Positions 1,228 through 56,835 of a stretch of 64,000 nucleotides of DNA are shown in pieces. A program made the translations under genes and the position numbers. This DNA comes from Actinomadura craniellae (GTDB lineage Bacteria > Actinomycetota > Actinomycetes > Streptosporangiales > Streptosporangiaceae): NCBI RefSeq assembly GCF_003289645.1, contig NZ_QLYX01000005.1:124001-188000 (forward strand), read 5' to 3'. The notes beneath the pieces are model-generated. The model did not search any database, was not told where the DNA came from, and saw nothing but the letters and a program-made list of their open reading frames with translations. Position 1 is the stretch's first letter, and each line of letters opens with the position of its first letter.

Positions 1228-2094
1228 ATGCGCAAGACGTTCAAGCTGATCCCGGCGGTCGTGGCCCTCGCCGCGGGCCTCGCCACCGCCCCCGTGGCCC
1301 AGGCCACCGCCGCCAGCCCCTACGCCAAGGGTCCGGACCCCACCGAGGCCAGCGTCACCGCCAGCCGCGGGCCGTTCGCCACGGCCACCACGTCGGTCCG
1401 CTCCTACAGCCACCCCGGCTTCAACAGCGGCACGATCTACTACCCGACCGACACCAGCCAGGGCACGTTCGGCGCCATCGCCGTGATCCCGGGCTTCCTG
1501 TCGCCCGAGTCGAGCGTGTCGTGGTACGGGCAGCGGCTCGCGTCCCAGGGCTTCGTGGTCATGACGCTGGAGACTTCCTCCGGCTTCGACCAGCCCGACC
1601 AGCGGGCCAACCAGTTGCTGGGCGCGCTGGACTACCTGACCACGAGCAGTTCGGTGCGCAGCCGGATCGACGTCAACCGGCTCGGCGTCATGGGCTGGTC
1701 CATGGGCGGCGGCGGGACGCTCCGCGCGGCCGAGCGCGGCACCGGCATCAAGGCCGCGATCCCGCTCGCCCCCTGGCACACCAACCAGAACTGGCGGTCC
1801 GTCCGCGTCCCGACGATGATCATCGGTGCGGACAACGACACCATCGCCGGCACCGGCGCGCACGCCGAGCCCTTCTACAACAACCTGACGGGCGCCCGGG
1901 ACCGGGCGTACCTGGAGCTCAACAATGCCGACCACTTCACGTTCACGTCGTCGAACACGACGATCGCGAAGTACAGCATCTCCTGGATGAAGCGGTTCCT
2001 CGACGACGACACCCGCTACGACCGCTTCCTGTGCCCCGCCCCGAGCCCGAGCAGCACCATCCAGGAGTACCGCAACTCCTGCCCGCACTCCTGA
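1228..2094 (+). CDS. Secreted cutinase / PET-hydrolase-family polyesterase
   Basis: Predicted extracellular alpha/beta hydrolase of 288 residues that cleaves ester bonds in polymers such as cutin or aliphatic/aromatic polyesters. A Sec signal peptide runs from MRKTFK to about residue 27 (APVAQATA). The mature part has the PYAKGPDPTE opening typical of actinomycete cutinases. Ser158 lies in GWSMGGG, Asp204 in GADNDT and His236 in NADHF; these form the expected catalytic triad. F90 and M159 supply the oxyanion site, W183 is the substrate clamp, and Cys269-Cys285 match the family's C-terminal disulfide. Length and order agree with Thermobifida cutinases and Ideonella PETase. Unusually, Trp157 precedes the nucleophile (PETase-like; His in thermophilic cutinases) while Phe237 follows the catalytic His (cutinase-like), and the second PETase disulfide is absent (Ala201/Thr238). 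The start was chosen by signal peptide and RBS. Confidence 0.93.
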   Translation: MRKTFKLIPAVVALAAGLATAPVAQATAASPYAKGPDPTEASVTASRGPFATATTSVRSYSHPGFNSGTIYYPTDTSQGTFGAIAVIPGFLSPESSVSWYGQRLASQGFVVMTLETSSGFDQPDQRANQLLGALDYLTTSSSVRSRIDVNRLGVMGWSMGGGGTLRAAERGTGIKAAIPLAPWHTNQNWRSVRVPTMIIGADNDTIAGTGAHAEPFYNNLTGARDRAYLELNNADHFTFTSSNTTIAKYSISWMKRFLDDDTRYDRFLCPAPSPSSTIQEYRNSCPHS

Positions 2095-2150: not shown

Positions 2151-2415
2151 TCACGAGGCGCGGAAGGTACGGCGGTAGGCCGAAGGCGAGGTCTTCGTCG
2201 CGCGGGCGAAGTGGTGGCGGAAGGTCGCCGGGCTCTCGAAGCCGACGGCGGCGCCGACCCCCTCCACGGGCAGCGCACCCGATTCGAGCAGCGGCGGGCC
2301 GGCCATCATCCGCTGCGCGACGACCAATCGCAGCGGGCTCGTCCCCGTGCGGCGGGAGAAGTGCCGGACGAAGGTGCGCGGCGTCAGGTTCGCCTGCCGG
2401 GCGAGGTCGGCGCCG
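2151..2415 (-). pseudogene. Remnant of AraC-family regulator (C-terminal HTH only)
   Basis: In reverse frame this segment encodes ARQANLTPRTFVRHFSRR...VGFESPATFRHHF...SPSAYRRTFRAS and a stop. That is the DNA-binding double helix-turn-helix of a GlxA/FtrA-like AraC regulator. The N-terminal DJ-1/amidase-like domain is missing: upstream of about 2415 the frame runs into GC-rich sequence and then the 3' end of the lipoprotein gene at 2485. No start codon with an RBS is seen. It is best read as a truncated, non-functional relic left by a deletion between the polyesterase and lipoprotein genes. Confidence 0.8.
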
Positions 2416-8389: not shown

Positions 8390-8647
8390 TTACTCCCACT
8401 TGGTGGAGAGCACCACTCCGACAATGATCAGGCTGAAGCCGATGCCCAGGTTCCAGTTCCCCAGGTCGGTCAGCAGGGGCACCCGGGTACCGGTGCTCGC
8501 CGTCACGTAGAACGTCGCGATCCACCCGAGCCCGACCAGCCAGCAGGCGAGCATGGTCGGCACCAGCCACCGCGGGCTGACCTTAACCTGCTGGGACCGC
8601 TGCGGCGGCGTGTAGACCGCCTTCTTGCGCACTTTGGATTTGGCCAC
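8390..8647 (-). CDS. crgA: Cell division protein CrgA
   Basis: 85-residue inner-membrane protein that in mycobacteria and Streptomyces interacts with FtsZ/FtsI/FtsQ partners and restrains or stabilises the septum. It shows the family layout: a short basic N-terminus (AKSKVRKKAVYTPP), two transmembrane helices (about 29-50 and 64-81) joined by a short loop, and the WNLGIGF signature. GTG start at 8647 with GGAGATC upstream. Convergent with the rhomboid gene and divergent from the DUF881 gene, as in other Actinobacteria. Confidence 0.95.
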   Translation of the reverse strand: MAKSKVRKKAVYTPPQRSQQVKVSPRWLVPTMLACWLVGLGWIATFYVTASTGTRVPLLTDLGNWNLGIGFSLIIVGVVLSTKWE

Positions 8648-8704
8648 GGTTGGATCTCCTTGGGCGGGCGGCAGCACCGGTCCGCGCGTGGGTGGTTTGT
8701 GGGC

Positions 8705-8710
8705 TAGCGT
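8705..8710 (+). promoter_or_regulatory. Probable -10 element for DUF881 operon
   Basis: TAGCGT fits the actinobacterial TANNNT -10 and lies 9 bases before the ATG at 8720. No Shine-Dalgarno sequence precedes that start, so the transcript is likely leaderless or nearly so. Confidence 0.5.
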
Positions 8711-8719
8711 AACCGTTGA

Positions 8720-9466
8720 ATGAGCAGCGTACGACGTCGGACGTGGGGAAGCATCATCCCCGCCCTCACCCTGGCCGCGGGCACACTGTTCGCGGCCAGT
8801 TCGAGCACCGCTCGGGGCACCGATCTGCGCGACGGCGGGCGCACCCGGATCACCGAACTCATCACCGCCGAGCAGCAGCGCAACGACCGCGAACTCGCCC
8901 GGTACCGGCGATTGCGCCGCGAGGTCGACACCATGGCCCGGCAGGCCGGCCGCCGGGACGCCCGGGTCAAGGAGGCCCAGGCCCGCGCCGACGCCCGCGC
9001 CGGATCCGCCGCGTTCACCCCACTGCGCGGCAGCGGCCTGCGCGTCTCGCTCGACGACGCCCCGCAGCGCGGCCGGCTCGGGCACAGCGTCAACCCCGAC
9101 GACCTGGTGGTGCACCAGAGCGACGTGCAGGCCGTGGTGAACGCGCTGTGGGCGGGCGGCGCCACCGGCATGCAGATCATGGACCAGCGGGTCATCACCA
9201 CCAGCGCGGTACGGTGCGTGGGCAATACGCTGATCCTGCAGGGCGTCGTCTACTCCCCGCCGTTCCACATCACGGCGGTGGGCGACCCCGGCCGGCTCCG
9301 CGCGACGCTGGCCGCCTCCCCGGAGATCGGTGTCTACCTGAACCATGTGGAGCAGTACGGGCTCGGGTTCTCGGTGCGAGTGCTCGACTCGGTCACCCTG
9401 CCGTCCTACACCGGCAACGTGACCATGAAGCATGCGGAGCCGGTCACGGGGGACGCACAGTCGTAA
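8720..9466 (+). CDS. DUF881-family membrane-anchored protein
   Basis: 248-residue protein with a signal-anchor (SIIPALTLAAGTLFAASSS, about 11-29), then an extracytoplasmic coiled-coil segment rich in Arg, Glu and Gln (about 35-90) and a C-terminal alpha/beta domain. It includes the conserved GLRVSLDDAP, NPDDLVVHQSDVQAVVNALWAGGA and VGNTLILQGVVYSPP blocks of DUF881. The family is found beside crgA and sortase genes and is thought to act at the division site or envelope; the biochemical role is unknown. The sortase gene starts 6 bases after its stop. Confidence 0.92.
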   Translation: MSSVRRRTWGSIIPALTLAAGTLFAASSSTARGTDLRDGGRTRITELITAEQQRNDRELARYRRLRREVDTMARQAGRRDARVKEAQARADARAGSAAFTPLRGSGLRVSLDDAPQRGRLGHSVNPDDLVVHQSDVQAVVNALWAGGATGMQIMDQRVITTSAVRCVGNTLILQGVVYSPPFHITAVGDPGRLRATLAASPEIGVYLNHVEQYGLGFSVRVLDSVTLPSYTGNVTMKHAEPVTGDAQS

Positions 9467-9472
9467 CGTATC

Positions 9473-10153
9473 GTGACGACGTCGTGCCAGAATCTGACAC
9501 GGGAACGGAGACGGGTGGTGCGGGTTCTGATCCGCGGCTTCGGAGAGCTGTGCATCACCGCCGGGTTGGTCGTGCTGCTGTTCGTGACCTACACGCTGTG
9601 GGGCACCGGCCGCTACACCCGCGCGCAGCAGGAACAGCTCAGCGACCAGCTCCAGCGGACCTGGCGGCAACCCCAGGTCACCACCGAGAAGATCACGCTG
9701 GGCAGCGGCATCGCGCAGATCCGCATCCCCCGGTTCGGGAAGAAGTACCGTTATGTCGTGGTCGAGGGCGTCGATCTGAGCGACCTGCGCAAGGGGCCCG
9801 GACACTACCCCGGCACCGCCCTGCCCGGCCAGGTCGGCAACTTCGTCGTCTCGGGCCACCGCACCACCTACTCCGCGCCGTTCAACCGCGCCGCCGAGTT
9901 GCGGTCCGGCGACGAGATCCTCATCGACACCCGGGACAAGCAGTACGTCTACGAAGTCACCAGCAGAAGAGTGGTCCAGCCCACGGCGATGGAGGTGACC
10001 GCACCGGTACCGTTCCATCCCGGGCGGAAACCCGAGCGGCGACTGCTCACGATCACCACCTGCCACCCCAAGTACTCGGCCGCCCAGCGGCTCATCATCT
10101 TCGGCGAACTGGTCCGGGAACTGCCCCGGGCCACCGCCACCGACCAGGGCTAG
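9473..10153 (+). CDS. Class E sortase
   Basis: 226-residue membrane-anchored transpeptidase that cleaves a C-terminal sorting signal and links the protein to the cell wall. One transmembrane helix spans about 22-43 and the catalytic beta-barrel follows. His129 (SGHRTTY), Cys197 (TITTCHPKYS) and Arg206 (AAQRL) form the active site. Class E enzymes usually recognise LAxTG-type signals in high-GC Gram-positives. The start GTG at 9473 is the first of several; a start inside VVRVL would remove only cytoplasmic residues. No sorting-signal substrate is encoded in the window. Part of the DUF881 to pabA operon. Confidence 0.92.
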   Translation: MTTSCQNLTRERRRVVRVLIRGFGELCITAGLVVLLFVTYTLWGTGRYTRAQQEQLSDQLQRTWRQPQVTTEKITLGSGIAQIRIPRFGKKYRYVVVEGVDLSDLRKGPGHYPGTALPGQVGNFVVSGHRTTYSAPFNRAAELRSGDEILIDTRDKQYVYEVTSRRVVQPTAMEVTAPVPFHPGRKPERRLLTITTCHPKYSAAQRLIIFGELVRELPRATATDQG

Positions 10154-10160
10154 GAGAGCG

Positions 10161-10358
10161 ATGTACGCCTGGATCTGGCGCCGGTTGCCCGGCCACGGGC
10201 CACAGCGTGCGCTGGTCGCGCTCGGGCTGATCCTCGCGGCCGTGGCGATCCTGTGGTACGTGATCTTCCCCTGGCTCGAGCCCAAGCTCCAGTTCGACCG
10301 GGGAGTGGTCGAGAACGGCGTGACGGCTCCGCCCTCCTCCCCTTCGGTGCCGGGCTGA
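10161..10358 (+). CDS. Small single-pass membrane protein
   Basis: 65 residues with one hydrophobic helix (ALVALGLILAAVAILWYVIFPWL, about 17-39), a basic cytoplasmic start and a short polar tail. Preceded by GGAGAG and sandwiched between the sortase gene and pabA; its TGA overlaps the pabA ATG (TGATG). Small proteins of this kind are common in this locus in Actinobacteria. Function unknown. Confidence 0.85.
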   Translation: MYAWIWRRLPGHGPQRALVALGLILAAVAILWYVIFPWLEPKLQFDRGVVENGVTAPPSSPSVPG

Positions 10359-10969
10359 TGCGCGTCCTGGTCGTCGACAACCGCGACAGCTTCGTCTTCA
10401 ACCTCGTGCAGTACCTGCTCGAACTCGGCGCCGACTGCGTGGTCAAGGACCGCTCGGCGGTCACGCTCGCGGACGCCGAGGCCGTGGACGGTGTCCTCCT
10501 CAGCCCTGGCCCCGGGCATCCCCGGGACACGGGGATCTGCCTCGACCTGGTCCGCCGCACCGACCGGCCGCTGCTGGGCGTCTGCCTCGGGCACCAGATC
10601 ATCGCGGTGGCGTACGGTGCAACCGTGTCCCGCGCCCCCGAGGTCGTGCACGGGTACACCAGCGCGATCCACCACTCCGGAGCGGGCCTGCTCGCCGGGC
10701 TACCCAGCCCGTTCCCCGCCACCCGCTACCACTCGCTGGCGGTCGAGCCCGGCACGGTGGCGGCCCCGCTGGAGGTGACCGCCCGCACCGCGGACGGCGT
10801 CGTCATGGGGCTGCGGCACCGGACCCGGCCCGTCGAAGGGGTGCAGTTCCACCCGGAGTCGGTGCTCAGCGAGCACGGCCACGCGCTGCTGGACAACTGG
10901 CTGGCCCGCTGCGCCCCCGCCGGACGCCGACCCGGTGCCCTCGCCCAGAAATATCACCCAGCTGTGTAA
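10358..10969 (+). CDS. pabA: Class I glutamine amidotransferase (anthranilate/ADC synthase component II)
   Basis: 203-residue glutaminase subunit delivering ammonia to anthranilate synthase or aminodeoxychorismate synthase. The triad is Cys76 (GVCLGHQ), His165 and Glu167 (QFHPES). SPGPGHP and the HGYTSAIHHSG loop are typical. The orphan copy at this locus is annotated trpG in mycobacteria; without a trpE/pabB neighbour the choice between folate and tryptophan synthesis is open, and it may serve both. The strong terminator at 11001 closes the operon. Confidence 0.93.
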   Translation: MRVLVVDNRDSFVFNLVQYLLELGADCVVKDRSAVTLADAEAVDGVLLSPGPGHPRDTGICLDLVRRTDRPLLGVCLGHQIIAVAYGATVSRAPEVVHGYTSAIHHSGAGLLAGLPSPFPATRYHSLAVEPGTVAAPLEVTARTADGVVMGLRHRTRPVEGVQFHPESVLSEHGHALLDNWLARCAPAGRRPGALAQKYHPAV

Positions 10970-55590: not shown

Positions 55591-56835
55591 TTACCAGTTC
55601 TTGTACTGGACGTCGCCGAGGTTGCAGAAGGTGCAGGTACGGCTCAGGAAGTTCTCCGTGCGGCGGAACTCCTCGTCGGCCAGGTGCCACCGCAGCCAGG
55701 CGGTGATGATGTGCTGGCCGTTGCGGGTGGCCATGATGTGGTCGGTGTTGTCGAGGATGTTGAACCACACCGGCACGTCGGTGTTGCCGTAGTCGCGCTC
55801 CACGTTCCCGGTGGCGAAGTCGTCGTCACCACCGATGTAGAGCGCCGGGTTCCGGAGGTTGTCCGGGCCGTTGCCGTCGAAGGAGCCGCCGGCCACGTGG
55901 ACGGTGGTCTCCAGCCGCGGCTCGTTGGCCACGTCGAACGTCCCGATCGACCCGCGGGAGTGGCCACCGAAGGCCACCTCGGAGAGGTCGAGGTCCTGGT
56001 ACAGCGGGCTGCTCGACCTGGCGTTCTCGTCCTCCAGCCAGTCGAGGGCGTCGACCATGTAGTCACCGCTGCTGGACGAGACCTCGCTGTAGACGACGAA
56101 CCCGTGCGAGGCCCACTGGCGCAGCATGTCCTCGTAGTCGGCGGGGTCGGATCCCGCGCCCGGGCCCCAGACGAAGACCGGGTGGTCCACCCCGTTCTGC
56201 CCGGCGTTCGTCGGGTACACCAGCCACCCGTCCCGGCCAGGGCCGGCCGACTGGTTGATGGTCACCGCGTACGGTCCGGGCCTGGTGACGTCGCTCACCG
56301 GGGGCAGCGACCCGCCCGGCGGGTCCGGGTCCCCGCCGTTCGTGGCATCGACAAGCACGTTGTCGACGGTCAGCGTCTCCAGGGCGCTGCTGGCGTCCAG
56401 CGAAAACCGCAGCCGCAGGTCGCGGCCGTCGACCGAGGCGGGCAGGCGGAACGACGCCGCACCCGTGGCGGTGCGCAGCGACTCCAGCGGGGTGAACGAG
56501 CCGCCGTCGACCGAGTAGGCCGCGGTGAAGGTCTCGCCCGCGTCCAGCCCGGACGCCGCCCGGGTGTAGGACACCGTCACGCCGCTGTACCCGGCCAGGT
56601 CGATGGGCGCGGACGTGATGGACGGGTCGGAGAGCAGCGAACCGCTCAACCGGGCGCCGTACGTGCCGGTCCTGACGGAGCCGGAGGCGGTGAAGCTGCC
56701 GAGCCCGTTGGAGAAATCCTCACTGTAGACCGTGGCGGCGGAGGCGGGGGTCGTGATGGCGCCGGCAGCTCCCATGGTCATGATGCCGATGGCCACGACG
56801 CCGAATTTTCGCAGGCGCCCGCTGATGCGAGACAT
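55591..56835 (-). CDS. Secreted alpha/beta hydrolase with N-terminal beta-sandwich
   Basis: 414 residues. Signal peptide to about residue 34 (ITTPASAA). Residues 35-165 look like a carbohydrate-binding or CUB-like beta-sandwich (YSEDFSNGLGSF...LRLRFSLDASSALETLTVDNVLVDA), then a Gly/Pro linker and a chlorophyllase/cutinase-type hydrolase: VFVWGPGAGSDPADYEDMLRQWASHGFVV, nucleophile elbow GGHSRGS, acid in IGGDDDFA, and His in NTDHIMA. The C-terminal Cys pair (CTFCNLG) may form a disulfide. Substrate unknown, plausibly a polyester or lipid. Confidence 0.88.
   Translation of the reverse strand: MSRISGRLRKFGVVAIGIMTMGAAGAITTPASAATVYSEDFSNGLGSFTASGSVRTGTYGARLSGSLLSDPSITSAPIDLAGYSGVTVSYTRAASGLDAGETFTAAYSVDGGSFTPLESLRTATGAASFRLPASVDGRDLRLRFSLDASSALETLTVDNVLVDATNGGDPDPPGGSLPPVSDVTRPGPYAVTINQSAGPGRDGWLVYPTNAGQNGVDHPVFVWGPGAGSDPADYEDMLRQWASHGFVVYSEVSSSSGDYMVDALDWLEDENARSSSPLYQDLDLSEVAFGGHSRGSIGTFDVANEPRLETTVHVAGGSFDGNGPDNLRNPALYIGGDDDFATGNVERDYGNTDVPVWFNILDNTDHIMATRNGQHIITAWLRWHLADEEFRRTENFLSRTCTFCNLGDVQYKNW

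Follow-up and report, generated by a model that had tools for sequence, protein, structure and literature searches.

Positions 1228..2094 (plus strand) of the window analysed here, a 64,000-nucleotide stretch of the Actinomadura craniellae genome, encode a 288-residue polyesterase of the PETase family (PF12740). This protein is probably a broad-substrate secreted polyesterase with a subsite II similar to that of CaPETase from Cryptosporangium aurantiacum, for which activity with PET and PBAT at moderate temperature is plausible. The combination of Trp and Phe with a single disulfide in such an enzyme is not new, because CaPETase is a characterised precedent. As judged from the sequences compared, the residue set of CaPETase recurs in other actinomycetes.

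The gene was recognized by its open reading frame, a Pfam match, and an AlphaFold2 model. The reading frame and every residue named in the original prediction were confirmed at their positions by reading of the sequence. PF12740 covers residues 27-286 (E 3.3e-116, 387.7 bits); its curated cut-off of 28 bits is lax, as 4 of 14 control genomes pass it as well. A homologue (L011) has Met at the position that corresponds to the ATG at 1228, which is thus a reasonable start, and a GC3 of 0.98 agrees with what a genuine gene should show in a genome rich in GC. Residues 1-28 (MRKTFKLIPAVVALAAGLATAPVAQATA; 1228..1311, plus strand) form a probable Sec-type leader with a cleavage site placed by eye, suggesting a secreted enzyme. 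Mean pLDDT over residues 1-30 is 53-61, and for most solved homologues listed in the PDB search the alignment starts at residue 28-33. Structure prediction, which had been proposed as a check, yielded a confident model from a 98-row alignment (mean pLDDT 92.7), in which fold and catalytic triad are those of a plain cutinase; an earlier fold, for which the alignment had 7 rows, reached a pLDDT of just 63.8 and was discarded. The nearest solved fold is that of 7ykp, a hydrolase from Thermomonospora curvata (Z 47.0, rmsd 0.8 Å over 260 residues, 60% identity), and 7ykp and the Streptomyces exfoliatus lipase 1jfr together lie at 60% identity and an rmsd of 0.8-0.9. Polyester hydrolases of T. curvata, which may differ from the solved 7ykp, are described as acting on PCL and PET nanoparticles (PMC4231364).

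The active site is formed by the motifs P88-G89-F90-L91-S92, G156-W157-S158-M159, D202-N203-D204, and D235-H236-F237, all coordinates referring to the plus strand. The enzyme would be a secreted serine ester hydrolase of the cutinase/PET hydrolase family with S158, H236, and D204 as putative triad and, by homology, the backbone of F90 and M159 as oxyanion hole. The catalytic acid D204 (1837..1839) is invariant in 98 sequences. In the segment F90-L91-S92 (1495..1503), the oxyanion-hole aromatic residue is followed by Leu-Ser in place of Thr-Ala/Gly. This whole segment had been set against the Tyr-Thr-Ala/Gly of subsite I; a real departure is L91, as 118 of 171 homologues have Thr, whereas F90 is ordinary (74/137 F, 63/137 Y). 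In W157-S158-M159 (1696..1704), a Trp encoded by TGG (1696-1698) stands beside the nucleophile Ser and is followed by the oxyanion-hole Met. W183 (1774..1776), nearly invariant in alignment A2, is the equivalent of the mobile W185 of IsPETase. H212 and F216 (1861..1875) represent the cutinase pair, in contrast to S214/I218 of IsPETase, the pair which lets W185 move (PMC10080609). The catalytic His loop D235-H236-F237-T238-F239-T240 (1930..1947) contains F237 and T240, which accompany W157. Further unusual residues are D235 preceding the catalytic His and F239-T240 in place of the usual Pro-Asn/Gln, besides the H212/F216 pair. Counted on the sequences, the His loop measures 17 residues from the catalytic His up to the Trp that follows, compared to 20 in IsPETase. 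C269 and C285 (2032..2082), invariant in alignment A2, are predicted to form the single conserved C-terminal disulfide; they are the only cysteines, so that a second disulfide is impossible, as had been predicted. Two PETase-family proteins from other genomes (L132 and L143 from G357 and G347; family code f26) have no cysteine at all, and SM14est is likewise described as having no disulfide (PMC10213408).

In the scheme of Joo et al. 2018 (PMC5785972), all 57 type I proteins have His before the nucleophile, and type II is characterized by an additional disulfide and an extended loop. Against this scheme, the proposed mixture of cutinase and PETase features is real. The enzyme has the predicted single C-terminal disulfide, the non-extended β8-α6 loop, and the Phe (F237) of type I, but W157 instead of His at the place of W159 of IsPETase. 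The Trp at this place is a mark of type II, while the second disulfide and the extended loop of this type are absent, and the mobile-Trp mark of IsPETase-type enzymes, Ser/Ile at S214/I218, is replaced by H212/F216. By definition the window's enzyme is not a type II PETase because of the missing second disulfide and the short His loop. As a novelty, the mixture does not stand: Trp with Phe/Tyr is already the usual pair of type IIa enzymes (PMC11219463), and for CaPETase, Trp and Phe have been published in an enzyme that has one disulfide and lacks the extended loop.

With IsPETase (type IIb), the enzyme shares the Trp before Ser, the catalytic triad, and the oxyanion-hole Met, whereas IsPETase differs by its Ser after His, S214/I218, the second disulfide C203-C239, and a loop that is 3 residues longer. 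With the type I cutinases compared (7ykp/7yko/7ykq from T. curvata, 1jfr, PHL7, LCC, and TfCut2), it shares the fold, the single disulfide, the H212/F216 pair, the loop length, and, in most of them, Phe after His (Leu in PHL7). In contrast to the Trp of the window's enzyme, 7ykq and 1jfr carry His before Ser, and His is also described at this position in LCC variants, BhrPETase, TfCut2, and Cut190 (PMC11219463). Canonical homologues have Thr at position 91 and mostly Asn/Gln at position 240, where the window's enzyme has L91 and T240. The type IIa enzymes Mors1, OaCut, and PE-H have the Trp and Phe/Tyr pair in common with it but are described with two disulfides and an extended loop (PMC11219463). 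The actinomycete enzymes Kubu-P and Mipa-P (Seo et al. 2024, as described in PMC11219463) have one disulfide and no extended loop, as here, and reportedly conserve neither the His nor the Phe of type I. Reports disagree on whether Trp at this place is beneficial: the exchange W159H/S238F in IsPETase decreased PET activity according to one study but increased it according to another (PMC11219463).

The closest functional comparison is offered by CaPETase (PDB 7ym9; M9 variant 7yme), which is reported to have high PET activity at ambient temperature (PMC10382486). It is described as type I-like, but with Trp replacing His while Phe is kept (PMC11219463), and as having one disulfide and no extended loop (PMC10382486, PMC11219463). 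I102 stands in place of a conserved Thr, and I102T lowers activity; an interaction is described between T250 and W168, and replacement of either by its usual counterpart decreases activity and/or stability. Hong et al. term these residues unique (PMC10382486). Matched by the numbering of that paper, I102, W168, and T250 would correspond to L91, W157, and T240. Like CaPETase, the window's enzyme is an actinomycete protein with one disulfide and no extended loop; both have Trp before Ser, Phe directly after His, Thr at His + 4, and, where IsPETase has T88, an aliphatic residue instead of Thr. Thus, the CaPETase-like set of Trp, Phe, Thr at His + 4, and non-Thr at the place of I102 is present as W157, F237, T240, and L91. 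The two enzymes differ by Ile versus Leu at position 91, and identity is 52-53%, a value which applies to the window's enzyme alone among the eight Trp-type proteins described below. A further set of CaPETase residues, F248, Q107, and L133, is not shared and probably corresponds to T238, S96, and Q122, as judged from numbering and motif. The unusual preference for aromatic polyesters that had been proposed may or may not exist, but because of CaPETase, PET activity is more plausible for the window's enzyme than for a random member of the family. PDB searches with a Trp-type protein (L064) and a Trp-type profile (A1) gave no solved Trp-type relative among the top matches; the best five alignments were all with His-type proteins, and CaPETase (7yme) appeared well down both lists. 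PDB searches and open-licence literature revealed no characterised close homologue with the same residues, and accordingly none known to be an ordinary lipase.

The residue before the nucleophile is rarely Trp. A first set of 99 distinct proteins from the window's family and class contained 7 with Trp, 1 with Tyr, and 91 with His. After addition of a class-wide sample, in which 211 of 394 genomes matched at E 0.001, many of them weakly, W157 was present in 7 of 137 distinct homologues (152 matches before removal of redundancy), and Trp was absent from the 37 proteins of this sample that were read from beyond the family. When 341 genomes of the family were searched, 280 of which matched at the same threshold, one further Trp protein was added, resulting in 8 Trp, 1 Tyr, and 162 His in the widest set of 171 distinct proteins read (210 translated matches before removal of redundancy). 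The eight Trp proteins are spread over seven genomes. These counts refer to the proteins read from the matches listed, and further cases may exist; strong class-level matches that were listed in G458, G503, G572, G531, G326, G508, and G440, and one more in G339, lie outside the set read. Since sampling was guided by similarity either to this protein or to Trp-type proteins, the counts probably overstate the real proportion of Trp. The matches in G458 (C1:840745-841593) and G572 (C1:1765228-1766079) each have one internal TGA and are possible pseudogenes. The sole Tyr before the nucleophile Ser among the 171 proteins is found in L015 (GYSMG; G109 C5:228519-229352). A single base change can turn a His codon into a Tyr codon, but not into a Trp codon.

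All eight Trp proteins among the 171 homologues read also carry F237, T240, and an aliphatic residue at position 91. Of the 53 proteins without Thr at position 91, 44 are His-type, and of these F237 is found in 6, T240 in 3, and both in 1. F237 is therefore uncommon in this non-Thr91 branch unless Trp is present. The position most tied to W157 is T240 (7/7 versus 2/27; Fisher 6.7e-6, calculated on an earlier 34-row set and ignoring kinship). For the coupling count and trees, the 137 proteins were reduced to 135 rows, as two had undetermined residues. In the first tree, a branch with an SH-aLRT of 99 separates 68 canonical F/Y-T-A/G proteins, all His-type, from 31 others, which include all 7 Trp rows of the first set; the starred branches of this tree forced just 1 Trp change. 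In a wider tree with IsPETase, a starred branch splits 37 rows (34 non-Thr91, 3 Thr91) from 99 Thr91 rows. The rows closest to the window's enzyme in the trees are the Trp-type proteins L011 and L166, followed by the His-type L010 and the paralogue L002. A careful tree was calculated from the 53 non-Thr91 rows and 16 hand-chosen others with the coupled columns excluded. On this tree, at least 3 changes are needed to explain Trp, 2 of which are forced by starred branches; one change was sufficient in 0 of 200 bootstrap trees, and a single clade of Trp proteins was narrowly rejected (AU p 0.044). Trp and its two partner residues recur in three clades of the tree. The coupling of Trp and Thr comprises at most 3 independent pairs, which is too few for a tree-aware test; it is not significant after tree correction and is thus suggestive. 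In every case read, the Trp-Phe-Thr set travels together, and it probably arose more than once, or else Trp may be ancestral and have been lost later. A mixed origin by recombination was dropped, as the joint occurrence of the same residues in three clades speaks against it. In open-licence PubMed Central, covered mostly by titles and the beginnings of abstracts, no description of the divergent non-Thr91 branch was found.

Other readings of the enzyme have to be considered, none of which excludes the preferred one, so that the confidences given are not shares of a whole. It is quite possible, though the less probable case, that the protein is an ordinary secreted lipase or esterase, in which Trp reflects neutral drift within a divergent actinomycete branch and leaves aromatic polyesters unaffected. 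The branch to which the eight Trp proteins belong is divergent, and many other residues near the catalytic His are changed in it as well; the Tyr of L015 in the same branch indicates that the position tolerates other aromatic residues. In addition, 1jfr, an early solved member, is named a lipase, and the NCBI equivalog model for the BHET hydrolase BdeA (NF051441) scores 437.5 bits, under its curated cut-off of 520. Neutral drift is opposed by the recurrence of Trp and the same two partners in three clades and by the functionality of the same residue set in CaPETase. A specialist for another natural ester such as polyhydroxyalkanoate or wax ester, with D235 and F239-T240 reshaping the cleft, is unlikely. 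Members of the divergent branch often have other residues in place of the Ser before the catalytic His and of the Pro-Asn following it, and 2 of the 7 Trp-type proteins of A1 weakly match the model for intracellular PHA depolymerase (best E 2.5e-4), but for the window's protein itself no match to a PHA depolymerase reached E 0.001, and its fold and triad are those of a plain cutinase. Descent from a type IIa PETase stripped of its second disulfide and extended loop, with Trp inherited from the IsPETase side, is very improbable: the Trp and Phe/Tyr pair is usual there and the type IIa enzyme PET2 (Trp, Trp) reportedly has a single disulfide (PMC11219463), but the window's enzyme groups with actinomycete proteins in a tree with IsPETase as sole type II protein, its nearest rows include the His-type L002 and L010, the rows nearest to IsPETase, whose long branch makes its place unsure, are canonical His-type, and the His loop has type I length.

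The genome of 7.5 Mb (41 contigs) encodes six strong PETase-family members including the window's enzyme, and all five paralogues are His-type; three more matches lie barely above the PF12740 cut-off (29-47 bits). Two paralogues are encoded in tandem on the same contig (G000 C37:439078-441438); both are of the FTA/His type, and no other protein of the genome scores higher with PF12740 (421.8 and 407.6 bits). In a 414-residue protein encoded in the window at 55591-56835 (minus strand), residues 185-381 weakly match the PETase family (46 bits). One protein of the genome matches the Pfam family Cutinase PF01083 (102 bits; 1 of 14 controls). A search for a pathway of the terephthalate type gave two partial matches in the genome (45.4 and 44.3 bits; cut-off 29.8; 0 of 14 controls) to the tannase family PF07519, the family of MHETase; they span only 111 and 135 of 490 positions. 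No conserved operon around the polyesterase gene was found at 12 related loci, with flanks of 1.5 kb at 9 and 3 kb at 3; the only match in these flanks was a DEAD-box helicase near the His-type L167. Between the polyesterase gene and the next gene, an 82-residue AraC-type helix-turn-helix piece (2151-2399, minus strand; HTH_18, E 1.8e-17) looks like the remnant of a regulator because no start codon gives 80 residues or more, and it is absent from the short flanks of the 12 related loci. A 761-residue frame at 8390-10675 (minus strand) matches CrgA in its last 83 residues only, so that the actual gene is likely to be confined to the short 3' end.

According to the preferred reading of a broad-substrate polyesterase, the enzyme does not belong to the canonical F/Y-T-A/G clade and would have a subsite II rebuilt like that of CaPETase. 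W157 would pack against T240 of the catalytic His loop, and in the loop that follows the first oxyanion residue, the aliphatic L91 would take the place of Thr. This should result in a wider and more hydrophobic cleft, with the cutinase H212/F216 pair and the single disulfide retained. The most likely substrates in the host are plant cutin or suberin, lipids, or other natural polyesters, which the enzyme would degrade beside its five strong paralogues; from the comparison with CaPETase, it may plausibly hydrolyse PET and PBAT too, perhaps at moderate temperatures. More tentatively, and with the odds rather against it, the CaPETase subsite may be a recurrent natural module that actinomycete polyesterases with His-type ancestors built repeatedly, under selection for some bulky ester in nature long before the existence of plastics.

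The engineering of PET hydrolases is based on few natural templates, among which CaPETase combines ambient activity with thermostability. The enzyme adds to the cases outside the type I/type II scheme, in which His is present in all surveyed type I proteins. It is well suited as a candidate for testing and does not represent a new kind of enzyme. Eight more natural proteins with the CaPETase set would show whether the Trp-Thr pair matters and would provide new starting points. If the recurrent module is real, the enzyme and its seven fellows would be ambient-temperature PET/PBAT hydrolases from untouched sequence space.
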